A stretch of DNA of 14,510 nucleotides from Nostoc sp. GT001. Its GTDB lineage: Bacteria > Cyanobacteriota > Cyanobacteriia > Cyanobacteriales > Nostocaceae. A program made the position numbers and the translations under genes. A model generated the notes under the pieces. That model did not search any database, had not been told where the DNA came from, and saw only the letters and a list, made by a program, of their open reading frames with translations. Location: the NCBI RefSeq assembly GCF_030382115.1, contig NZ_JAUDRJ010000003.1, forward strand, positions 7,265,162 to 7,279,671, given 5' to 3'. Positions 889 through 11,347 of the stretch are shown in pieces (the first letter of the stretch is position 1; every line of letters starts with the position of its first letter).

Positions 889-3800
889 TTACCCACTTTT
901 ACTCCAAACATATTTTTGGCAGACTTCGCAAGCGGCTTTTGCCTCCTCTGTTTGCGGATTGGTGAAGATGGGATGGTAACGTAACCTGTTGCAACAGACT
1001 TGCAACCATCCACGCCAACCACCCCGCCACAACCTTATTGTTCCATCATCGCTGCCACTAACTATCTTTTGCCCATTGGGGCTAAAAGCTACTGACCAGA
1101 CAGAATCTTCATGTCCCCTAAACGGTTGACCAATGGGGTTACCTGCTAAATCCCATAACTGCAATGTGTTATCGTCGCTACCACTAACAATTATCTGCCC
1201 ATCAGGACTAAAGGCGACTGACCAAACATAATTCTCGTGCCCCCAAAATGGTTGACTGATGGGGTTACCTGCTAAGTCCCATAACCGCACTGTGTTGTCA
1301 ATACTGCCACTAACTATCTTTTGCCCATCGGGACTAAAAGCAATGGCGGTGACAGAACCTTCGTGATCCTGTAAGGAGTGACTGAGCAGGTTACCCTTGA
1401 TATCCCATAACTCCACTTTCCCTTCACGACTGCCAGTACCGATCTTTTGCCCATCGGGACTAAAGGCAATGGCGGTCAGTTCACCTTCACCTACCCGTAA
1501 AAGTTGAGCGATGGAGTGACCCTGCATATCCCATAACCTTACTGTCCTGTCATCACTGCCAGTAACTATCTTTTGCCCATCAGGGCTAATAGCGACTGAA
1601 AAGATAACATTCTCATGACCACGCAAGGGTTGAGCGATGGAGTGACCCTGCATATCCCATAACCTTACTGTCCCGTCATCACTGCCAGTGACTATCTTTT
1701 GCCCATCGGGGCTAATAGCGACTGACCGCACAGAATACTCATGCCCCTGAAAAGGTTCACCAATAGGTTTGCCCTGGATATCCCACAAACGCACTATACC
1801 ATCACTGCTGCCGCTGACTATCTTTTGCCCATCAGGACTAAAGGCGACTGAATTGACTGAACTTTCATGCCCCTTGAAGGGATAAGTAAGCGGATTGCTC
1901 GTTAAATCCCATAACCGCACTGTTTGGTCACGACTGCCACTAACTATTTTTTGCCCATCAGGACTAAAGGCCACTGACCAGACAACATTTTTATGCTCCC
2001 TAAACGGTTGACCGATGGGGTTGCCCATTAAATCCCACAACCGAACTGTGTTGTCGCTACTGCCACTAACTATCTTTTGCCCATCAGGACTAAAGGCCAC
2101 TGATAAAACAGAATTTTCATGTCCACTAAGCGGTTGACCAATGAGGCTACCCGCTAAATCCCATAACCGCAGTGTTCGGTCACGACTGCCACTAACAATT
2201 TTCTGTCCATCGTGATTAAAGGCAACTGAATAGACTTCATGCTCATGTCCCCAAAATGGTTTACCTATAGGGTGACCTTGAATATCCCACAAACGCACCG
2301 TCTTGTCCCAACTGCCACTGGCTATCATTTGACCATTGGTGCTAAAAACAACTGAAAAGATAACATCTTCATGACCGTAAAAGGGTTGACCGATAGGTTG
2401 GCCTATTAGATTCCATAGCCGCACTGTCTTGTCCCAACTGCCACTGGCTATCATTTGACTATCGGCACTAAAAGAGACGGCAGTAACATAAGCTTCATGC
2501 CCGTAAAAGGGTTCACCTATAGGATTGCCCTGGATGTCCCACAAACGCACCGTCTTGTCCCGACTGCCACTGACAATTATTTGACCATCCGGGCTAATAG
2601 CAACTGAATATACGGAGTCTTCATGCCCCTGAAAGGGTCGATCGATAGGATTGCCTAGTAGATCCCATAAGCGTACTGTTCCGTCAAGACCGCCACTGAC
2701 AATCATTTGACCATCCGGGCTAATAGCAACTGAATTGACAGTACCTTCATGTCCCAGGAAGGGAATGGATACTCTAACTGTTTCCATCACTCTATGCAAG
2801 CTGTTTTGAACTGGGGTGAGAATCTGATCTGGCATTTTGTCAAGATTCTCACCTATTGCCTGAATCGCCAAAACTAGACCATCTAATGGTTTGAAAGGTA
2901 GTAAATTCAATACCCTTGTAGCTTTTTCTCGCAAAGTAGCTTGGGTGAGTGCCCGTTCTAAAATATTGATTCGGTCTTTTTCATACGCATCACTGCGTTG
3001 ATAAAAATTTTTGGCTTGAGGTGATGATAAAAACTCCAGCTTTTCCCAATTTTCCCGCACCTCTGCCAATAATCCCCCCTGCATTAAGTATTTTTCATTC
3101 TCTCCTTTTCTCAACCACTCGCGTAATGCATCTGCTAACCTATCACTCAACCGCCGCAAATCTCGGTCTTGTTGTCGCCATTGGGCAAACCTCTCCCAAA
3201 CCTCAATTAAGGCTTCATGGGCTAAATCAATCCAAGCTTTTCCTTGTTCATCTTTCCCAGCTACCAACAAACGTCCTTTCACCAATCCTTCATCTAGCAA
3301 TTCACTTAATGCTTCCTGCTTTTCTTGGTCATTACCACCAATGGCTAACAATTCAGCTTTTGCTTGGCGCTGTCGCGTATCCTTTTCTCCCTCTCCAGTT
3401 CGCAATAATCGCAGGAAAATTTGCCCAATCCAGTCCTTCTCCTGTTCATTTCGTTCTTGAGTCGGAGAATCCTGCTGATAATCTTCGTAAAGATAAACAT
3501 TTTCTGCATGAAGATTCAGCGCCCCTGTCAATCCTTGGAAGTTTTCATACTGTTCTAAGGTGAGTTGATGCTTTTGTTGGTCGCGTTTTTCCCAGAGTCT
3601 AGTTAAAGCAAACTCCATTAACGGCAAATATCCCGGTTCTTTACCAACATCTTCTAAAATTTTCAGTACTAGTCTTTCTTCAACACTATGACCTTGAAGT
3701 TTAGCAGGTTCGGTTATTGTCTCTTTTAAATCAATTCCTGTGATCCGCGGCATCAAAACAAGCTGATTTTCAATTAATTTATTTAAAGACGGATAATCTG

Positions 3801-5076
3801 AACATAGTTCGAGAAAATCCGATCGCATGGTAATCACAACTTTCAACCGCGAATCGGTTATCTCTCCTACCTGAGTCAGCAATTCAATAAATCTCTGCTT
3901 TTGTTCAGCAACAGCAACAGTAAATAGTTCCTCCAACTGATCTACTACCAATAAAAATTTTTCTGCACCTGTGAGATGCTCCAGAATTACAGGTAAAGGA
4001 TTCGGTTCATTAGTAATCAACTCCCACAGCAATTTTTCTTTTCTCGCCCCTGGAAAAAATGCTTTCAGAATTGCTCTCAATTCCTGCAACGGCTGAAATC
4101 CTGGCTTGATTGGCGGTAAAATTTGCCAGACTCTATCATCTAATTCTGGAATTAAACCTGCCTGAACTACAGAAGATTTACCACTCCCGGAAGCGCCAAT
4201 AATTGGGACAAAGGGATTTTGTGCCAGTTTCGCCAGAATCTTCCTTACAACCTGCTTGCGCCCAAAGAAAAACTGTTTTTGTTCCGCTTCAAAGGCTTTT
4301 AAACCTTGATAAGGACATTCTTCCTTTACCTCAAAGGTCTGAGCTTGTGTTTGAATGTTGTGGGTAATTAGAGTAATCGAACGCCCCCAACCCATGCGGA
4401 TTGGTTCTTGACCACTCTTTTTAAGTTCTGTGGCAAGTATATCGAAGAGGCGATCGCCTGTCACCTGTCCGCGATCGTTAGTGTTGTCTGGTGACAAACC
4501 AGCCAGCAAAGCTGTTGTAAAAATACTGTGTTGTTCGCTTTTTTTGGCATAAGCTTGTTGAAAACCTCTACAAGCAGCAATAAAGTAGTAATCGCGCTGT
4601 GAAATAAAGGCAGTAAGAGTTTTTTCGATGAGATTGCGTTCTAAAAATTCACCACTATGACAGCAATCTAACAGCACTACTAGACTACTCAAGTCGGAGT
4701 CTCTAATTAAATTGTTGAGACTTAAAAGACTAATCCCGCCTGTTTGCTCAATAATCTGATTGCCTTGAGTGACAATTGTCAAGTCAGAGGTTGCTAAATA
4801 TGCTTGTTGTGTTCCTAAGCTGTCAGATACGGTGATGCCATGCCCTGTAAAGTAAATTAGCGCTTCGTTTTTAACTGCTTGTTGTTGCAAAAGTGTTTTG
4901 AAAGCTTTAGCCAACTTAGTTGTACTAACTTTCCCTTTGAGAACAGCGATATCCTCAAAATCACCATGCGCTTTTAGTACCTGCGCGACTGCTTCGGCAT
5001 CCGTAGCTGGTTTTGTGAGATTGGAAAGCTGATTTGTATAATCCGTAATGCCAACTACAAGCGCGTAACGAGCCAT
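889..5076 (-). CDS. Caspase-like peptidase / STAND NTPase / 14x WD40 protein
   Basis: A 1395-residue signalling protein in three parts. Residues 1-240 form a peptidase C14 (caspase/metacaspase-like) domain: H79 in 'LIYFTGHG' and C139 in 'LLDCCHSG' are the expected catalytic pair. From 'CPYQGLKAF' (254-262) begins a STAND-type P-loop NTPase (nSTAND1-like), with Walker A GASGSGKSS (294-302), Walker B 'FLLVVDQLEELF' (374-385) and 'TMRSDF' (416-421). Helical arms follow to about 770. Residues 775-1350 hold 14 WD40 repeats of exactly 42 residues, enough for two seven-bladed propellers. A 45-residue tail has four cysteines (CC and CEVC). No signal peptide is seen, so it is probably cytoplasmic. By family knowledge, ligand binding to the propellers would trigger NTP-dependent assembly and peptidase activation; the ligand and peptidase targets are unknown. 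The ATG at 5074-5076 gives the normal caspase N-terminus. A divergent Trypco1 gene lies 67 bp upstream. Confidence 0.95.
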   Translation of the reverse strand: MARYALVVGITDYTNQLSNLTKPATDAEAVAQVLKAHGDFEDIAVLKGKVSTTKLAKAFKTLLQQQAVKNEALIYFTGHGITVSDSLGTQQAYLATSDLTIVTQGNQIIEQTGGISLLSLNNLIRDSDLSSLVVLLDCCHSGEFLERNLIEKTLTAFISQRDYYFIAACRGFQQAYAKKSEQHSIFTTALLAGLSPDNTNDRGQVTGDRLFDILATELKKSGQEPIRMGWGRSITLITHNIQTQAQTFEVKEECPYQGLKAFEAEQKQFFFGRKQVVRKILAKLAQNPFVPIIGASGSGKSSVVQAGLIPELDDRVWQILPPIKPGFQPLQELRAILKAFFPGARKEKLLWELITNEPNPLPVILEHLTGAEKFLLVVDQLEELFTVAVAEQKQRFIELLTQVGEITDSRLKVVITMRSDFLELCSDYPSLNKLIENQLVLMPRITGIDLKETITEPAKLQGHSVEERLVLKILEDVGKEPGYLPLMEFALTRLWEKRDQQKHQLTLEQYENFQGLTGALNLHAENVYLYEDYQQDSPTQERNEQEKDWIGQIFLRLLRTGEGEKDTRQRQAKAELLAIGGNDQEKQEALSELLDEGLVKGRLLVAGKDEQGKAWIDLAHEALIEVWERFAQWRQQDRDLRRLSDRLADALREWLRKGENEKYLMQGGLLAEVRENWEKLEFLSSPQAKNFYQRSDAYEKDRINILERALTQATLREKATRVLNLLPFKPLDGLVLAIQAIGENLDKMPDQILTPVQNSLHRVMETVRVSIPFLGHEGTVNSVAISPDGQMIVSGGLDGTVRLWDLLGNPIDRPFQGHEDSVYSVAISPDGQIIVSGSRDKTVRLWDIQGNPIGEPFYGHEAYVTAVSFSADSQMIASGSWDKTVRLWNLIGQPIGQPFYGHEDVIFSVVFSTNGQMIASGSWDKTVRLWDIQGHPIGKPFWGHEHEVYSVAFNHDGQKIVSGSRDRTLRLWDLAGSLIGQPLSGHENSVLSVAFSPDGQKIVSGSSDNTVRLWDLMGNPIGQPFREHKNVVWSVAFSPDGQKIVSGSRDQTVRLWDLTSNPLTYPFKGHESSVNSVAFSPDGQKIVSGSSDGIVRLWDIQGKPIGEPFQGHEYSVRSVAISPDGQKIVTGSDDGTVRLWDMQGHSIAQPLRGHENVIFSVAISPDGQKIVTGSDDRTVRLWDMQGHSIAQLLRVGEGELTAIAFSPDGQKIGTGSREGKVELWDIKGNLLSHSLQDHEGSVTAIAFSPDGQKIVSGSIDNTVRLWDLAGNPISQPFWGHENYVWSVAFSPDGQIIVSGSDDNTLQLWDLAGNPIGQPFRGHEDSVWSVAFSPNGQKIVSGSDDGTIRLWRGGWRGWLQVCCNRLRYHPIFTNPQTEEAKAACEVCQKYVWSKSG
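1027..2754 (-). repeat. WD40 array of the first paralogue: 14 units of 126 bp
   Basis: Fourteen uninterrupted 42-residue units, typically starting GHE and containing 'SVAFSPDGQ', 'IVSGS.D.TVRLWD' and 'GNPIGQPF'. Units 7, 11 and 12 have lost the leading GH in part (EH, VG and DH). Unit 11 is the most divergent, with 'GTGSREGKVELW'. The units are more diverged from each other than in the paralogue at 8046-9773, which suggests an older array or less recent homogenisation. Confidence 0.92.
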
Positions 5077-5143
5077 CTATACGTATTTAAATTGTCTGTT
5101 ACAGAATAAGATAACTTAAATACACCTAAACTCTGAGGGCTTG
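5077..5143. promoter_or_regulatory. Divergent promoter region between the caspase and Trypco1 genes
   Basis: This 67-bp AT-rich spacer must hold both start regions if each gene has its own promoter. Two overlapping palindromes, ATACGTAT (5079-5086) and ATTTAAAT (5085-5092), sit just before the caspase-gene ATG, where a ribosome binding site would be; no Shine-Dalgarno sequence is visible for that gene. On the + side, GAGGG (5135-5139) precedes the ATG at 5144. I cannot place -35/-10 boxes with confidence. Confidence 0.4.
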
Positions 5144-5521
5144 ATGTCGAACATAGAACGTTTAGTCTTTGAAGAAGACGGGGAAATCTATACAATTCTG
5201 TTCGAGTCAAAGGAAACGCCAAATATACCAAAAGTTGTCACACCGGAGGTTGATGAGGAGAAGGAATCCTACGGCTTTCGGGAAGAGGCATTTGTCAAGA
5301 TTGAAGAAGTTCACCATCAAATTCGAGCTTATACCAAATATGCCATTGGCGCTTTTAAAAATTTAGGTGCTGCTGAAGTCGAAGAGGTGACTTTGAAGTT
5401 TGGCTTGAAGATAGGCGGAAAAACTGGTATCCCCTTTGTGACTGAAGGTTCGGCGGAGAGCAATTTTGAAATTGAGGTGAAGTGTAAGTTTCCTGAAAAT
5501 AAGCAAAATTCCAGCACTTAA
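5144..5521 (+). CDS. Trypsin-co-occurring domain 1 (Trypco1) family small protein
   Basis: A 125-residue protein of the Trypco1 / CU044_2847-type family. An N-terminal beta-rich part ('IERLVFEEDGEIYTILFES', residues 4-22) is followed by a helical middle. The diagnostic C-terminal block (79-115) contains 'EEVTLKFGLKIGGKTG' and 'ESNFEIEVKCKF', as in family members with 'VEFGVKL...ANFKV'. The family is known from genomic association with trypsin-like and caspase-like peptidases in predicted conflict systems; its biochemical role is not established. An upstream in-frame TTG (5141) would sit 1 nt from the GAGGG box, whereas ATG 5144 sits 4 nt away, so the ATG is preferred. It is transcribed divergently from the caspase/STAND gene, which makes a functional link plausible (inference). 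Confidence 0.82.
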   Translation: MSNIERLVFEEDGEIYTILFESKETPNIPKVVTPEVDEEKESYGFREEAFVKIEEVHHQIRAYTKYAIGAFKNLGAAEVEEVTLKFGLKIGGKTGIPFVTEGSAESNFEIEVKCKFPENKQNSST

Positions 5522-5671
5522 GGTTTTGCTTTGCCAAAGATAAGCTTTGTACTTTCAACTCTGCTAAGAATTATGGAAGCGATGTCTAAGAGGTTGGTTG
5601 AAAAATCGTAAAGTATACCAGAGACCCCTCTCCAAACCTCTCCCCGAAACGGAGAGATGCTTTAAAACCCC
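5522..5671. other. Spacer with cyanobacterial interspersed repeat
   Basis: No gene is seen. From about 5620 a common Nostoc-type repeat begins ('acccctctccaaacctctcccc'), including a small hairpin CTCTCC...CGGAGAG near 5637-5656. The repeat resumes at 6748 after the insertion sequence ('ggggggctaggggggttagg'), so the IS landed inside it. Confidence 0.5.
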
Positions 5672-5690
5672 CATTCCCTTGTAGGGAAGG
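5672..5690 (+). repeat. Left copy of 19-bp direct repeat flanking the IS
   Basis: CATTCCCTTGTAGGGAAGG directly abuts the left IS end (CAGGG at 5691). An identical copy follows the right IS end at 6748-6766. The sequence is itself palindromic at its core (TTCCCT TGT AGGGAA). Confidence 0.8.
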
Positions 5691-5726
5691 CAGGGTGGAT
5701 TAATTGTCGGGAGAGAAAAAGTTTTC

Positions 5727-6659
5727 TCACTCGACCATTGGACTCACAGGCATTGGGCAAAAGGAGTCGGAGTGGTCAAATAGCGCATCAAAAAAGCTAC
5801 TTAAATAAAAGTGTTGTTCATGATAGTCAACAATCTGGCGACGACAATTCTATCCTTGAGGTCGAGTTCCATATCTGTTAACCTCAATTAAACTTTTAGC
5901 GCCAACCCAATCAGGTAGTGACTCAAATGGAATTGGATAGACTTTGACTTGACGAGTAGTCTTTCGTCCATGTAAATTTTCATCATGGTAATTGGTATCG
6001 ATAGCGATTGAGGATTCAGCTAGCTCAGTAGCTACTTTCAGGAGATTTGGCTGGTTTCTTTTAATAGTAATAATGTAGTCATTTTCTCCCTCGATAATCA
6101 GCTCAACAGTTTTTTTTGGCAATGTAGTGCATCGGCTGTAATCACGATATGATGCCCATAAAGCTTTTTAATTAGCTCTTCTACCACACTAATCTCACTG
6201 TTTTTGTTATTTTCCATAGCTTGATGTCTGATTACCCATCCTTGCTGATGACTATAAACTGAAAACTGAAACGATACTCACAAAGTTTTGATAGGATTGA
6301 TTTCCCCCGGTTACAGTACTTTTAATACATTTCCCATCGATGGCAAATAATTCTTTGAAATTAATTGGCAAACTCTTTTCTGCCCAGACGTTAAACAGTT
6401 CAGCTAATATCTGAAAATCAATTGACATCATAATATTTCTGAATGTTGATGCTGACGGAAATTGAATATCTGGAGATAAATCTAATAATTTGATTAGAGA
6501 TAATCGATGATTTTTTGTGAACTCAGCTAAAGGTTTATACCCCCAATATCCTGTACAACTACCTAACAAAACTATAGTTAGTATTATCCAAAGTCTATGT
6601 CTAATACCTCTAGCATGTCGATAATCGGGAACCCCTTGGATTGCTTCGATTAAATTCAT
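5727..6659 (-). pseudogene. Broken ISAs1-family transposase
   Basis: The first 135 codons (6659-6252) match the ISAs1 N-terminal domain: 'IQGVPDYRHARGIRHRLW', and the first DDE aspartate in 'ELFAIDGKCIKST'. The frame then ends at a stop near 6252 ('SVFSL'). One base shift restores 'SHQQGWVIRHQAMENN', continuing to 'VITADALH' with the second aspartate. A run of eight As (minus strand; 6110-6117) causes a second shift into 'KKTVELIIEGENDYIITIKR', which ends at an amber codon (5850-5852) after 'RYGTRPQG'. Read past that codon, the same frame continues 'NCRRQIVDYHEQHFYLSSFF' and stops at 5727. The 'HWgIEN.LHW' region carrying the last catalytic Glu is absent. Two shifts, one nonsense codon and a truncation make this a pseudogene. 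Confidence 0.85.
6110..6117 (-). other. A8 homopolymer at a transposase frame break
   Basis: On the minus strand the sequence is GCC-A8-CTG. With nine As the frame would run from 'ADALHCQKK' into 'TVELIIEG'; with eight it shifts. Transcriptional slippage at such runs is known in some IS elements, but the other lesions make simple decay more likely here. Confidence 0.5.
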
Positions 6660-6718
6660 TCCTAACTTTCCTCTGGGAGAACCGTGTTTTTCTTAAGGAA
6701 TCATCCTTCTATGTTATA

Positions 6719-6747
6719 TTTTCTCTCTCGACAATTAATCCACCCTG
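6719..6747 (-). repeat. Right inverted repeat of the IS
   Basis: The reverse complement begins CAGGGTGGATTAATTGTCG and matches the left end at 5691-5719 with one mismatch over about 29 bp. Confidence 0.85.
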
Positions 6748-6871
6748 CATTCCCTTGTAGGGAAGGGGGGCTAGGGGGGTTAGGTTTCCAAGGTCTAGAA
6801 GTTACCAAAAATACTTTTCAAACATCCTCTAAGGGCGAGCTACGCCTACACCTTTCACTCACCATAATTCA
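6748..6871. other. Spacer: repeat remnant right of the IS
   Basis: It starts with the second copy of the 19-bp direct repeat (6748-6766), then 'ggggggctaggggggttagg', the continuation of the interspersed repeat split by the IS. At 6835-6870 lies 'gcgagctacgcctacacctttcactcaccataatt', a copy of a dispersed repeat also present at 7715-7751. No gene is seen. Confidence 0.5.
6835..6870 (+). repeat. Dispersed repeat, copy 1 (second copy at 7715-7751)
   Basis: The core 'ctacgcctacacctttcac' followed by 'tcaccataatt' matches 'ttacgcctaagcctttcgc' followed by 'tcaccataatt' at 7715-7751, same orientation. The two copies bracket the 21-bp tandem array and the 157-residue gene. Confidence 0.6.
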
Positions 6872-7165
6872 CCCTTGAATCTCGGCCGTTGCAGTTCAAA
6901 ACACGAAGTTCCGAGTTTAAAAGGAGAGCGATCGCCTTCTACTCTCCATTATTCACTCTTGGATTTCGGATATTGCTGTTCAGAGCTTCAATTTTCGTGT
7001 TCTTATCTCGAAATTCCATGTTCTGAGGGTGAAGTTTCGAGTTCAGAACTCGGAACGTCGAGCAATTTACTCCAACATCCGAGTTCTGAACCTCAACATT
7101 GCACGTTAGAAGTACAATCGCCGAGTTATTTTCTACAATGCTGCTGCTTGAGGCTTGGATTTCCG
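6872..7165. repeat. Degenerate 21-bp tandem repeat, about 14 units
   Basis: Split into successive 21-mers from 6872, the sequence aligns in one register for 14 units with no indel. Most units begin AGTT or TGTT and end in TCG, CCG or TGC, with a purine-rich AAC/CGAA middle. Examples of unit starts are AGTTCAAAACACG (6893), AGTTTAAAAGGAG (6914), TGTTCTGAGGGTG (7019), AGTTCAGAACTCG (7040) and AGTTCTGAACCTC (7082). Identity between units is low but the phase is strict. The last two units overlap the 3' end of the 157-residue gene. Read on the + strand it gives a heptad-periodic open frame, which I take as a by-product of the 21-bp period. Confidence 0.65.
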
Positions 7166-7606
7166 AGATTTACGGGCGAACCTTTGCCCCATTTCCTCAA
7201 CTACCCCATCTAAACCAGCGCCTTGTCCACTAGCTTTGGCATAGTTATACACCTGCAACGCGGCTGCATAAGCTTCACTGCCCACTGCTATAGATGTATC
7301 ATCCAGCAACTCTTGTAATTGTGACAAAGATAGCAATACTGGATACAAAGCTTCAAATAATTGAACGTCTTTCCGCATCTCATTGAGGTCAAACGATCGC
7401 GGTAAAAACTCTGGGTTCTGTGTCGCCACCTCTAATGCTTTGCTTACAAAGGCGCGGCTTTTATCTCCCATCTTGGGTAAAGCTTTCCGCTCCTCGTTAC
7501 TTAAATCAATCAAAAATGGTAGCTTTTCTTTAATGGTGGCAATGGCTTGCAACACAGCATCTCTATCTGATTGCGCTAATGTTGCACTAATTGGGGCTGT
7601 GGACAT
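7133..7606 (-). CDS. Conserved hypothetical protein, 157 residues
   Basis: I do not recognise a named domain, though the sequence resembles a short, mostly helical conserved protein I associate with cyanobacteria (from memory). Residues 10-115 are amphipathic helices with 'REKLPFLIDL'-like text ('IKEKLPFLIDLSNEERKALP', 26-45) and 'LLSLSQLQELLDDTSIAVGS' (about 90-109). The C-terminus is basic and low-complexity (RKSRKSKPQAAAL) and may bind nucleic acid or be disordered. There is no signal peptide or membrane segment. ATG 7604-7606 is supported by GGAGA (7616-7620 on the minus strand), 9 nt upstream. The last codons overlap the 21-bp tandem array, so the end of the protein may have been altered by repeat growth. 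The gene stands alone between repeats. Confidence 0.8.
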   Translation of the reverse strand: MSTAPISATLAQSDRDAVLQAIATIKEKLPFLIDLSNEERKALPKMGDKSRAFVSKALEVATQNPEFLPRSFDLNEMRKDVQLFEALYPVLLSLSQLQELLDDTSIAVGSEAYAAALQVYNYAKASGQGAGLDGVVEEMGQRFARKSRKSKPQAAAL

Positions 7607-7904: not shown

Positions 7905-10900
7905 TTACCCGCTTACTTTACTCCAAACATATTTTTGGCAGGTTTCACAGGCGGCTTTTGCTTCCTCTGTTTGCGGATTGGTGAAGACGGGATGGTAACG
8001 TAACCTGTCACAACAGACTTGCAACCATGCACGCCAGTCACCGCGCCACAACCGTACAGTGCCATCTTCACCACCGCTAACAATCGTCTGCCCATCAGCG
8101 CTAATGGCAACAGAATAAACCCAACCTTCATGACCACGTAAAGGTTCCGCTAAAGCAAGACCTTGCAGGTTCCACAACCGTACAGTGCCGTCATCACCGC
8201 CGCTAACAATCGTCTGCCCATCGGTGCTAATGGCCACAGAATAGACCCAACCTTTATGACCACGCAAGGGTTCAGCTAAAGCAAGACCTTGCAGATTCCA
8301 CAACCGCACAGTGCCATCAGTACCACCACTAACAATCGTCTGCTCATCAGCGCTAATGGCAACAGAATTGACAAAACCCTGATGACCACGCAAAGGTTCA
8401 GCTAAGGCAAGACCTTGACGATTCCACAACCGCACAGTGCCGTCATCACCGCCACTAACAATTGTCTGCCCATCGGCGCTAATGGCGACAGAATTGACAT
8501 AACCCTGATGACCACGCATAGGTTCAGCTAAGGCAAGACCTTGACGATTCCACAACCGCACCGTACCATCACTACCACCACTGACAATCGTCTGCCCATC
8601 GGTACTGATACCAACAGAATAAACCCAGCCCTCATGACCACACAAAGGTTCAGTTAAGGCAAGACCTTGGTGATTCCACAACTGCACCGTACCGTCAGTA
8701 CCGCCACTGACAATATTCTGTCCATTGGCACTGATAGCGACAGAATAAACCCAACCCTTATGACCACGCAAAGGTTTCGCAAAGGGAAGACCTTGGTGGT
8801 TCCAAAACCACACTGTGCCGTCAGTACTACCACTAGCAATTGTCTGACCATCGGTGCTGATAGCAACAGACCTAACATTGCCTTCATGACCACGCAAAGG
8901 TTCAGTTAAGGGAATACCTTGGCGATTCCACAACCGCACCGTGCCGCCATCGCTGCCACTGACAATCGTCTGCCCATCGGTACTGATGGCGACAGAATTG
9001 ACATTACCCTGATGACCACGCAAAGGTTCAGCTAAGGAAAGACCTTGGCGATTCCACAGCCGCACCGTACCATCAGCACCGCCACTGACAATATTCTGTC
9101 CATTGGCGCTGATGGCTACAGAATTGACATAACTCTCATGACCATACAAAGGTTCAGCCAAGAGAAGACCTTGGTAGTTCCACAACCGCACCATACCATC
9201 AGCACCACCACTGACAATCGTCTGCCCATCGGCACTGATGGCGACAGAAAAGACATCATTTTTATGCCCACGCAATGGTTTAGCTAAGGGAAGACCTTGG
9301 CGGTTCCACAACCGCACAGTGCCGTCAGCACCACCACTGACAATCGTCTGCCCATCGGCACTGATGGCGACAGAAGAGACATCATTTTTATGCCCATGCA
9401 ATGGTTTAGCTAAGGCAAGACCTTGGTAATTCCACAACCGCACCGTGCCGTCAGCACCGCCACTGACAATCGTCTGCCCATCGGCACTGATGGCGACAGA
9501 ATTGACATTACCTTGATGACCGCGCAAAGGTTCAGCTAAGGAAAGACCTTGGTGGTTCCACAACCGCACCGTGCCGTCAGCACCGCCACTGACAATCGTC
9601 TGCTCATCGCCACTAATGGCGACAGAATTAACATAACCCTGATGACCACGCAAAGGTTCAGCTAAGGAAAGACCTTGGTAATTCCACAACCGCACCGTAC
9701 CATCAGCACCACCACTGACAATCGTCTGTCCATCGGCACTGATGGCGACAGAATTGATATAACCCTCATGACCACAGAAGGGAATCGAGACTCTTGCTTT
9801 ATTAACCACCCGATTCAAACTGTTCTGAACTGATGCAAGAATCTGCTGGGGTAGTTTCTCTTGATTCTCCCCCATAGCTTGAATTGCCAAAACTAGACTA
9901 TCTAGGGGTTGTAAGGGCAATAAATCGTCTACTCTAGCCGCTTTTTCTCGCAACTGGGATTCAGTAAGCGCCCTTTCCATCTCGGCAATCCGGTCTTTGT
10001 CATCGGCATCGCTACGCTGGTAAAAATCCTCATCTTGTTGGGGTGATTGCAAATCAGGCTGCAATTGTTGCCAGCTATCCCTCACTTGGGCCAGCAATCC
10101 CTTTTGCATTAAATATTTGTCATCCGACCTTTCGCTCAACCATTCCCGTCGCGTATTTTCTAATGTCTCGTTCAACGGTCGCAAGTCTCGGTCTTGTTGT
10201 CGCCACTGGGCAAACTGCTGCCAACTTTCAATTAAAGCTTCATGGGCTAGATTAATCCAGACTTCTCCTTTTTCATCTTTCCCAGTAATTAATAAGCGTC
10301 CCTTAACCAATCCCGCTTCACCATCTAGCAACTCACTAAGTTGTTGCTGTTGATTGGCATCATTACCTGCAATATTTAATAATGTGGCTTTTGGTTGGCG
10401 CTGTTGGGTATCCTTTTCTCCCTCTCCTGTTCCCATTAACCGCAGAAAAATCTGCTTAATCCATTCCTTTTCTTGCTGACTGCGTTCTTGAGTTGGATAT
10501 TCTTGCTCATAATCTTGGTAGTGATAAACATTTTCTGCATGGAGATTTAACACCGCAGTTAATCCTCCCAAATTTTCATACTCTTCTTGGGTAAGTTGAT
10601 GTTTCTTTTGCTCGCGTTTCTCCCACAGTTTAGTTAAGGCAAACTCTAACAATGGTAAATTCTCTGGTTCTTGTTGAAGATTTTGGAGAATTTGTAATGC
10701 TCCTGCTTCTTCAACACTATGAACCTGAAGCTGGGCAGGTTTGGCGATTATGTCCTTGAAATCAACTCCAGTTAAAGGCGGTATAACAACTACTGGGGTT
10801 TGAATCAGGTGAGCCAGAGAAGGATTATCTAAACAGGATTCCAGAAAATTGCCTCGCATAGTAATTACAACTGCTAACCGCGAATCATGAATCTCTACTA

Positions 10901-11096
10901 CCCCAGTCAGTAGTTCAATAAATCTCTGCCGTTCTTCCTTATCTATACAAACTGTAAATACTTCCCCAAACTCATCTACCAGCAGCAAAAATTTTTCTGT
11001 GCTAGCCACAGCCTCTGTATCATCAATAGGTTTAGTCAGGCTGCCGAAACTGTTGTCATCCTGAGCAATTTCAACCACAAGGGCGTATTGTGTCAT
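7905..11096 (-). CDS. Caspase-less, P-loop-less STAND/WD40 paralogue, 14x WD40
   Basis: This 1063-residue paralogue of the gene at 889-5076 starts with a recognisable caspase N-terminus (MTQYALVVEI, TKPIDDTEAVA). At residue 32 it jumps straight to the Walker B region ('STEKFLLLVDEFGEVF', 32-47). Relative to the paralogue it lacks residues 32-369: the caspase His and Cys, the linker and Walker A. The remaining switch is also altered: first Glu of 'DQLEELF' is Gly44, and RSD (418-420) has become RGN (81-83). The helical arms (about 90-440) are well conserved. Residues 442-1017 hold 14 WD40 repeats of 42 residues, far more alike than in the paralogue. The tail again carries CC and CETC. The long open frame with well-formed repeats argues it is still under selection. 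Neither peptidase nor normal NTPase activity is expected. Likely roles are a regulator, decoy or sensor partner of the full-length protein (inference). Confidence 0.9.
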   Translation of the reverse strand: MTQYALVVEIAQDDNSFGSLTKPIDDTEAVASTEKFLLLVDEFGEVFTVCIDKEERQRFIELLTGVVEIHDSRLAVVITMRGNFLESCLDNPSLAHLIQTPVVVIPPLTGVDFKDIIAKPAQLQVHSVEEAGALQILQNLQQEPENLPLLEFALTKLWEKREQKKHQLTQEEYENLGGLTAVLNLHAENVYHYQDYEQEYPTQERSQQEKEWIKQIFLRLMGTGEGEKDTQQRQPKATLLNIAGNDANQQQQLSELLDGEAGLVKGRLLITGKDEKGEVWINLAHEALIESWQQFAQWRQQDRDLRPLNETLENTRREWLSERSDDKYLMQKGLLAQVRDSWQQLQPDLQSPQQDEDFYQRSDADDKDRIAEMERALTESQLREKAARVDDLLPLQPLDSLVLAIQAMGENQEKLPQQILASVQNSLNRVVNKARVSIPFCGHEGYINSVAISADGQTIVSGGADGTVRLWNYQGLSLAEPLRGHQGYVNSVAISGDEQTIVSGGADGTVRLWNHQGLSLAEPLRGHQGNVNSVAISADGQTIVSGGADGTVRLWNYQGLALAKPLHGHKNDVSSVAISADGQTIVSGGADGTVRLWNRQGLPLAKPLRGHKNDVFSVAISADGQTIVSGGADGMVRLWNYQGLLLAEPLYGHESYVNSVAISANGQNIVSGGADGTVRLWNRQGLSLAEPLRGHQGNVNSVAISTDGQTIVSGSDGGTVRLWNRQGIPLTEPLRGHEGNVRSVAISTDGQTIASGSTDGTVWFWNHQGLPFAKPLRGHKGWVYSVAISANGQNIVSGGTDGTVQLWNHQGLALTEPLCGHEGWVYSVGISTDGQTIVSGGSDGTVRLWNRQGLALAEPMRGHQGYVNSVAISADGQTIVSGGDDGTVRLWNRQGLALAEPLRGHQGFVNSVAISADEQTIVSGGTDGTVRLWNLQGLALAEPLRGHKGWVYSVAISTDGQTIVSGGDDGTVRLWNLQGLALAEPLRGHEGWVYSVAISADGQTIVSGGEDGTVRLWRGDWRAWLQVCCDRLRYHPVFTNPQTEEAKAACETCQKYVWSKVSG
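8046..9773 (-). repeat. WD40 array of the second paralogue: 14 near-identical 126-bp units
   Basis: Fourteen 42-residue units share 'SVAISADGQTIVSGGADGTV' and 'RLWN.QGL.LAEPLR'. Differences concentrate at the three residues after GH (EGY, QGY, QGN, KND, ESY, EGN, KGW, EGW, QGF), the residue two before SV or next to it (N, S, F, R, Y), the residue after SGG (A, T, S, D, E) and the residue after WN (Y, H, R, L). The rest is close to invariant. This is the pattern of recently amplified or homogenised propellers with a variable binding face. Confidence 0.92.
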
Positions 11097-11236: not shown

Positions 11237-11347
11237 ATGAAAGTCTTCGTGACTGGGATAAACTCTATACCTTGTAGTCCAGTAGTAATTACGGGAGCGA
11301 TGTCTAAGGGCGGGCTACGAACAGTTGAAAATTTCAGCTTAAGTTGA
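11237..11347 (+). pseudogene. Possible N-terminal fragment of an NAD-dependent epimerase/SDR gene
   Basis: A 36-codon frame starts MKVFVTG, the usual beginning of extended-SDR epimerases (MKVFVTGATGFIGSAVV in relatives), and continues 'INSIPCSPVVITGA', which lines up in spacing with the Rossmann turn although the GxxGxxG glycines are lost. It then runs into an interspersed repeat and stops. This looks like a decayed remnant whose remainder is gone. The match is short, so coincidence cannot be excluded. Confidence 0.3.

Follow-up and report, generated by a model that had tools for sequence, protein, structure and literature searches.

A truncated nSTAND1/WD40 paralogue without caspase domain and P-loop retained in Nostoc, a candidate modulator of full-length caspase receptors

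Gene B, the subject of this report, lies in a 14,510-nt stretch of the 7.9-Mb genome of Nostoc sp. GT001 (contig C3, positions 7265162-7279671; hereafter, the window), which holds two large genes, A and B, both on the minus strand. Gene A (889..5076) encodes a full-length caspase-nSTAND1-WD40 receptor of 1395 aa. Gene B (7905..11096) encodes, as judged from its open reading frame (ORF), Pfam matches, alignment to A, and orthologues, a truncated nSTAND1/WD40 protein of 1063 aa without caspase and P-loop. The deletion, its spread within a single clade, purifying selection, and the conservation of sensor and tail indicate, at the level of sequence, that B has been retained, and it looks like a selected paralogue, perhaps a brake or a decoy, and not a dead copy. 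From these features we infer a regulatory role. Our preferred reading, held tentatively and at somewhat under even confidence, is that B is a fixed, effector-less, NTP-binding-deficient STAND/WD40 protein that may modulate, and most likely restrain, full-length caspase receptors.

What gene B has lost and what it keeps

Global alignment of the two proteins matches the first residues of B with those of A and opens a single 338-residue gap corresponding to A residues 32-369 (3970..4983, minus strand); all other gaps are of 1-2 residues. Three motifs of A fall inside this gap, YFTGHG (residue 75) and DCCHSG (residue 137), which we take to be the caspase His/Cys dyad motifs, and GASGSGKSS (residue 294), which we take to be Walker A. 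The Walker B strand of A (residue 374) lies outside it. The alignment supports a joint loss of effector and P-loop in B. The Pfam nSTAND1 profile aligns with A from position 1 and with B from position 115 of 379, and PF20703 matches B residues 28-326 with 210.8 bits (cut-off 27.1). B has no Walker A/P-loop of an active STAND NTPase and belongs to the STAND NTPases by descent, through its homologous Walker B, sensor-1, and winged-helix arms. Likewise, the 31 stub residues left do not make an orthocaspase/caspase p20 domain, and the PADLOC caspase model matches A and not B.

Along the minus strand, B begins with the stub (residues 1-31; 11004..11096), the start of the former caspase domain. It is followed by a remnant of the NTPase core (residues 33-115; 10752..11000), with no strands left but those of Walker B and sensor 1, by the winged-helix/helical arms with a coiled-coil linker (residues 116-432; 9801..10751), by 14 WD40 repeats of 42 aa at a spacing of exactly 42 residues (8016..9779), and by a CC...CxxC C-terminal tail (residues 1028-1063; 7905..8015). 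An earlier reading made from the DNA alone (hereafter, the sequence-only reading) had proposed that the second gene aligns with the first from residue 1 and lacks residues 32-369 (about 3970-4983), that the His/Cys dyad and Walker A are thereby removed, and that Walker B, helical arms, 14 WD40 repeats, and Cys tail are kept; global alignment and, for the retained parts, Pfam agree with it on each count. The tail is zinc-site-like and almost invariant. Its CC and CxxC are retained in 13/13 truncated rows (sequences of the arms-region tree described below) with an intact end, 3 of the 16 truncated rows being left out of this count because their C terminus is not intact, and the CxxC is present in 67/68 full-length rows with an intact end.

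The Walker B residue Asp41 is conserved in 16/16 truncated rows. The sequence-only reading also described altered switch motifs, EE to GE (residues 44-45) and RSD to RGN (residues 81-83), which is right for B itself but does not extend to the truncated clade as a whole, where these positions vary: E44 is retained in 14/16 rows, E45 in 9/16, R81 in 14/16, and D83 in 13/16, compared with 108/108 full-length rows for the equivalent of each.

Structure models were built from 27 sequences each, a shallow alignment in which 10 of the rows for B carried the stub. The fragment of A (residues 250-766) was modeled with a mean predicted local distance difference test (pLDDT) score of 71.6 and shows the strands before and after the P-loop, Walker B, and sensor 1. 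Its fold matches include plant NRC2 and ORC-type AAA+ proteins and, more weakly (E 7e-3), Avs5 and Avs4, all at low TM-scores. In the model of B, the core is reduced to the strands of Walker B and sensor 1, the helical linker is predicted about as well as that of A, and the stub is disordered. This model fits a loss of nucleotide binding but is no proof of it. We also considered that a stub strand might replace the missing P-loop strand, which the model does not support, as the stub has a pLDDT below 50 and forms no strand in this shallow alignment. A sequence search for solved relatives gave none that are credible for the arms.

Distribution, origin, and constraint

A scan of named genomes located the same open fusion at eight other loci (L008-L012 and L014-L016), in Nostoc strains and Nostocales LEGE 12452, with 76-92% identity across matched frames. 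A family search with B residues 1-120 as query (217 genomes, E up to 1e-20) found the stub-fused form, aligned from residue 1, in 10/53 genomes of the genus and in 0/164 other genomes of the family, and all 10 genome copies are without a stop. A contig-edge fragment in G036, 86% like the end of B, was excluded from this count. Full-length kin align with the query from residue 27-32 (one from residue 12) and are spread over 14/56 genera. Six database proteins (P0003-P0008) are also of the truncated type, P0008 being nearly identical to the L014 protein. Thus, the search for junction orthologues among relatives that the sequence-only reading had called for turned up the fusion repeatedly, and its description of the frame as open holds beyond the window.

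A tree built from 125 rows of the arms region places the 16 truncated rows in a single clade, with a Shimodaira-Hasegawa-like approximate likelihood ratio test (SH-aLRT) support of 99. This clade is nested inside one full-length subfamily among the 108 full-length rows, and gene A falls in a different full-length clade (33 rows, support 100). An 827-aa frame without stub (L045) was included in the tree and is not among the 16. Rows dropped were repeats of the window and named loci, L019 and L043 (short matches), L021 (contig edge), identical arms, full-length sequences below 50% identity, and rows below 370 residues. A DNA tree of 24 genes (10 truncated, 14 full-length) gave an ultrafast bootstrap of 100 for the truncated genes. 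By the arms tree, B derives from a full-length subfamily other than that of A. Gene A is thereby ruled out as the parent of B, which refines the sequence-only reading.

The junction itself exists in two forms, which are equal in length except for one codon in L009. Form 1, that of the window, has NDAEAV-like residues followed by [ND/S]TEKF, while form 2 reads TND-LENLPGTEKF or similar (L014, L016, P0005-P0008). Form 2 is probably the older, because it is paraphyletic in the tree, P0005 grouping with form 1. At the window junction (about 10998-11020), residues like DAEAV match the deleted left flank of full-length genes. Within the stub, residues 1-12 are nearly invariant and residues 13-31 freer; residue 9 is Glu in the 15 aligned truncated proteins and L030 and Gly in the full-length genes compared.

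Most of the full-length receptor genes close to B have a further gene in front of them. A Trypco1 (PF19493) gene stands head-to-head before close full-length genes at 13/15 loci for which 300 nt or more of upstream sequence were available (L044 and L049, the misses, gave partial matches only; L023, with 1 nt of upstream sequence, was excluded), and likewise before window gene A (5141..5521, plus strand). At L018, L020, and L046, of 27-28% identity, it was found in 0/3. No Trypco1 gene was found in front of B, and the sequence between the B flank and the start of B shows no convincing Trypco1 similarity (best E 0.75, over 24 nt). The 5′ flank of B (11246..11319, minus strand) does, however, resemble the flank beyond the Trypco1 3′ end at full-length loci. 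In four genomes, matches of at least 60 nt to this stretch, whose leading 24 nt or so are a dispersed repeat, fell only on B genes and Trypco1-side flanks. The match lay beyond the Trypco1 3′ end of a full-length locus in 2/4 of these genomes (G034, 85%; G050, 81%), and weaker similarity of the same kind was seen for window A, L008, L010, and L013. Because of this resemblance, it seems that the complete Trypco1-receptor unit was copied and that B arose from this copy by loss of both effector-side pieces, which is the weaker part of the proposed origin. The single in-frame deletion of the sequence-only reading is accordingly too simple, given the two junction forms and the apparent loss of Trypco1 as well.

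Constraint on B was estimated as ω (dN/dS) with a purpose-written codon model. Among the 10 truncated genes, ω is 1.27 for the stub (approximate confidence interval [CI] 0.63-2.8), 0.48 for the arms (0.39-0.59), and 0.14 for the tail (0.06-0.29). When 14 full-length genes are fitted jointly with them, the arms have ω 0.44 in the truncated clade vs. 0.26 in the background (p 7.4e-6), and ω = 1 is rejected for them at p 2e-14, as it is for the NTPase remnant (ω 0.44; p 1.7e-4), the winged-helix part (p 6.5e-6), and the linker (p 2.6e-7). Of the single parts, the winged-helix part is clearly under looser constraint than in full-length genes (p 2.1e-5), and the NTPase remnant shows a weak difference (p 0.043); for the linker alone, the two-ratio difference is not significant (p 0.11), and its stem estimate ran to its bound. 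B is under relaxed but real constraint, as the sequence-only reading had expected for the remaining parts.

These values bear on the reading of B as a relic in slow decay toward a pseudogene. The relaxed arms and near-neutral stub would fit such a relic, as would the eroded EE and RSD motifs, the 50/110 near-invariant columns that are incompletely kept across the 16 truncated rows, and the lack of a promoter-like site on the B strand. We consider it unlikely nonetheless, since no genome copy has a stop, neutrality of the arms is rejected, the tail and WD40 repeats are strongly constrained, and frames have stayed open while window B and L014 or L016 diverged by about 0.3 at synonymous sites. 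A young pseudogene or an assembly artefact is ruled out by the open fusion in 10 genomes and ω well below 1. The check on dN/dS that the sequence-only reading had proposed thus came out on the side of that reading, which had argued against simple decay.

Sensor, neighbours, and the possible role of B

The WD40 sensor of B combines conserved and variable positions. Its most variable repeat positions are 34, 25, 9, 7, 38, and 5. Among the 120 repeats of 10 B-type genes, 7/42 positions, chosen after the fungal work, hold 46% of nonsynonymous and 10% of synonymous differences. When orthologous repeats are compared unit by unit in five B genes (without L008B), pN/pS, the nonsynonymous-to-synonymous ratio, is 0.97 at positions 7, 9, 25, and 34 and 0.19 elsewhere; at the fungal positions 7, 9, 25, and 27 it is 0.85 vs. 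0.22 elsewhere. In the codon model, ω at the variable positions is 0.49 (CI 0.35-0.73) for the set of seven and 0.34 (CI 0.18-0.68) for four, compared with 0.16 at the less variable positions of B. The ω of 0.34-0.49 at the variable positions is elevated only and gives no support to positive selection there among orthologues.

Between five strains, the WD40 region and tail of B share 82-93% identity, whereas the WD40 region of A shares 54-77% and its caspase 78-96% (L012A, cut by a contig end, was left out of the A-A comparison). In L008, the NTPase and arms of the A-position gene are also replaced, with 53-63% identity to the others (53-56% to window A), while B there is 92% identical. Gene A (window 889-5076; L008 10774-14934) is a domain mosaic between strains, with caspase and tail conserved. 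Because the B sensor is so much more alike between strains than the WD40 region of A, the conserved gene is, by these identities, the truncated one, beside a mosaic receptor.

The diversity of A between strains, together with repeats that are alike internally and vary in number, could mean that B is a cassette donating WD40 variants to A by recombination. This is very improbable and mostly refuted, since the longest exact A-B WD40 matches within a genome (25-47 nt, six genomes) are no longer than those between genomes (up to 53 nt), and purifying selection on arms and tail would be unexpected for a donor. Exact WD40 matches between B genes reach 135 nt.

In 7/10 genomes, B has a full-length family gene as neighbour on its contig (the L011 copy is cut after 133 residues), and an eighth full-length neighbour, in G034, is probably split over two contigs. 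Close full-length kin occur in 8/10 genomes with B vs. 16/43 others (Fisher p 0.03, with relatedness ignored). Of the copies compared for their position (all except L030), B adjoins a GH116 gene in six cases (the window, L008, L009, L011, L012, and L015) and lies 3.5 kb from one in L010; in L014 it stands behind A and in L016 behind the end of another WD40 gene. L013 has the same locus with B absent. An upstream region of 205-241 nt, with 76-95% identity to the window, is common to all 10 B copies and accompanies B at more than one genomic position.

These observations suggest how B might act. Stripped of the effector side (caspase, P-loop half of the NTPase, and, as the flank suggests, the divergent Trypco1 gene), B should neither bind nor exchange nucleotide and therefore could not drive its own oligomerization. 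It would act through its retained WD40 propellers, arms, and tail, and might bind ligands or partners of full-length receptors such that the threshold is raised or caspase activation capped. Alternatively, B could be a co-sensor that joins the full-length oligomer and feeds ligand recognition positively, as in a sensor/helper pair, with no brake. The conserved sensor with still-elevated hypervariable positions and the frequent full-length neighbour would suit this. We give it little credence, as B without P-loop should not switch alone, the partner alleles found at one and the same locus are highly variable, and the plant precedent with such a truncation is inhibitory.

Several observations weigh against a restraining role. 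Intact B is present in G031 (L015), where the genome has no close full-length kin (the nearest at 39% identity) and the contig continues 5 kb beyond B, and in G019 (L009), where B stands at a contig end and no close full-length kin was found. The terminal branches of these two are not relaxed (ω 0.32 vs. 0.51, p 0.12), which rules out that B genes without kin are the relaxed ones. The A alleles beside B differ widely and B does not, giving no hint of co-evolution, and the arms are constrained about 1.7-fold more loosely than those of full-length genes. The model of B residues 1-432 is of low confidence (mean pLDDT 62), so that folding of the remnant does not follow from it. In addition, a consensus scan found no sigma-70-like promoter upstream on the B strand, and one terminator-like hairpin lies upstream of B at 11173-11155 (0.3 expected).

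Because B persists without close kin in 2/10 genomes and A is variable in L008, the data do not favour a tight hetero-oligomer specific to A. The same persistence without relaxation, along with the conservation of the B sensor across strains and a constraint strongest on the tail and the less variable WD40 positions and weaker on the arms, would fit B as an independent WD40 sensor or scaffold with other partners and no part in regulating caspase-STAND receptors. We regard this as a serious possibility, though short of probable. A mere WD40 scaffold would not need the arms and NTPase remnant, for which neutrality is rejected, and the full-length neighbours, present in 7 of 10 genomes and probably in an eighth, also speak against it.

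The window and the related loci hold further features. A 157-aa ORF (orf157, 7133-7606) has no Pfam match at E up to 0.01 and shows 88-99% identity in the eight loci where tblastn detected it. GH116, orf157, and Trypco1 are 93-99% identical in L008, L010, L012, and L014 where present. An ISAs1-family element (5668-6770) with 52-nt inverted arms, 88% complementary, carries a transposase broken into two frames (6252-6659 and 5850-6122); with two tblastn probes, it was not detected at any of the related loci examined.

Comparison with known systems

The closest homologues of B are the full-length caspase-nSTAND1-WD40 receptors, which share its nSTAND1 arms, WD40 repeats, Cys tail, and, largely, the variable WD40 positions. 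Unlike them, B has no caspase, P-loop, or head-to-head Trypco1 gene. Trypco1 was named for its pairing with trypsin-like peptidases (Kaur 2020, PMC7159879) and is mentioned also in loci with caspase-like peptidases (PMC10907252). Its head-to-head coupling with caspase-nSTAND1 receptors here stands beside a published pairing that is mainly with trypsin-like peptidases. The iSTAND of MoxR-vWA ternary systems, a predicted conflict system, is a catalytically inactive STAND domain, and inactive domains of such systems have been proposed as decoys or dominant negatives (Kaur 2020, PMC7159879). B differs in that its P-loop half was lost by deletion within the nSTAND1 family, and no MoxR or vWA domain was found by Pfam in nine of the 18 window ORFs (for A and B, among the best 25 families).

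In Podospora NWD/HET-E proteins, WD40 variation is focused on codons 7, 9, 25, and 27 at the top of the propeller (Paoletti 2007, PMC1805685). B likewise varies at 7, 9, and 25, but 27 is outside its 12 most variable positions. HET-D/E carry NACHT and HET domains (PMC4986451), whereas B is without effector and P-loop. Pseudo-orthocaspases are caspase relatives without catalytic dyad, with Tyr/Ser replacing His/Cys in p20 (PMC6426788); in B, by contrast, p20 is almost wholly lost and only a stub is left. Literature searches, with subscription journals largely outside their coverage, turned up no account of a bacterial protein of this kind.

Truncated or inactive immune receptors that regulate full-length kin are known in plants. 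NRG1C of Brassicaceae is an N-terminally truncated helper NLR related to NRG1A and NRG1B; it has lost the N-terminal signaling domain along with the greater part of the nucleotide-binding domain, retains what follows, and is conserved in the plant family (PMC12315475). Its inhibition is experimental, by competition for EDS1-SAG101, and the title of Wu 2022 in the reference list of the same paper speaks of "full-length neighbors" (PMC12315475). B resembles NRG1C in having lost the effector domain and the P-loop half of the NTPase with the rest retained, and in being conserved in a clade under purifying selection, and it may work in the same way, as a truncated family member restraining its full-length relatives. 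Inhibition by B is inferred only and NRG1C is a plant LRR protein, so the likeness would be one of mechanism with no homology. A more speculative and rather doubtful extension is that Nostoc evolved a bacterial NRG1C counterpart, a conserved NLR-like protein freed of caspase, P-loop, and Trypco1, which, with its near-unchanging sensor beside fast-diversifying caspase receptors, would serve as a built-in brake on filament suicide. B separates the needs of the retained half (arms, sensor, and tail) from those of the effector side (caspase, P-loop, and Trypco1), and, should the analogy with NRG1C be true, this natural Nostoc example would make the need for brakes in bacterial caspase-STAND systems testable.

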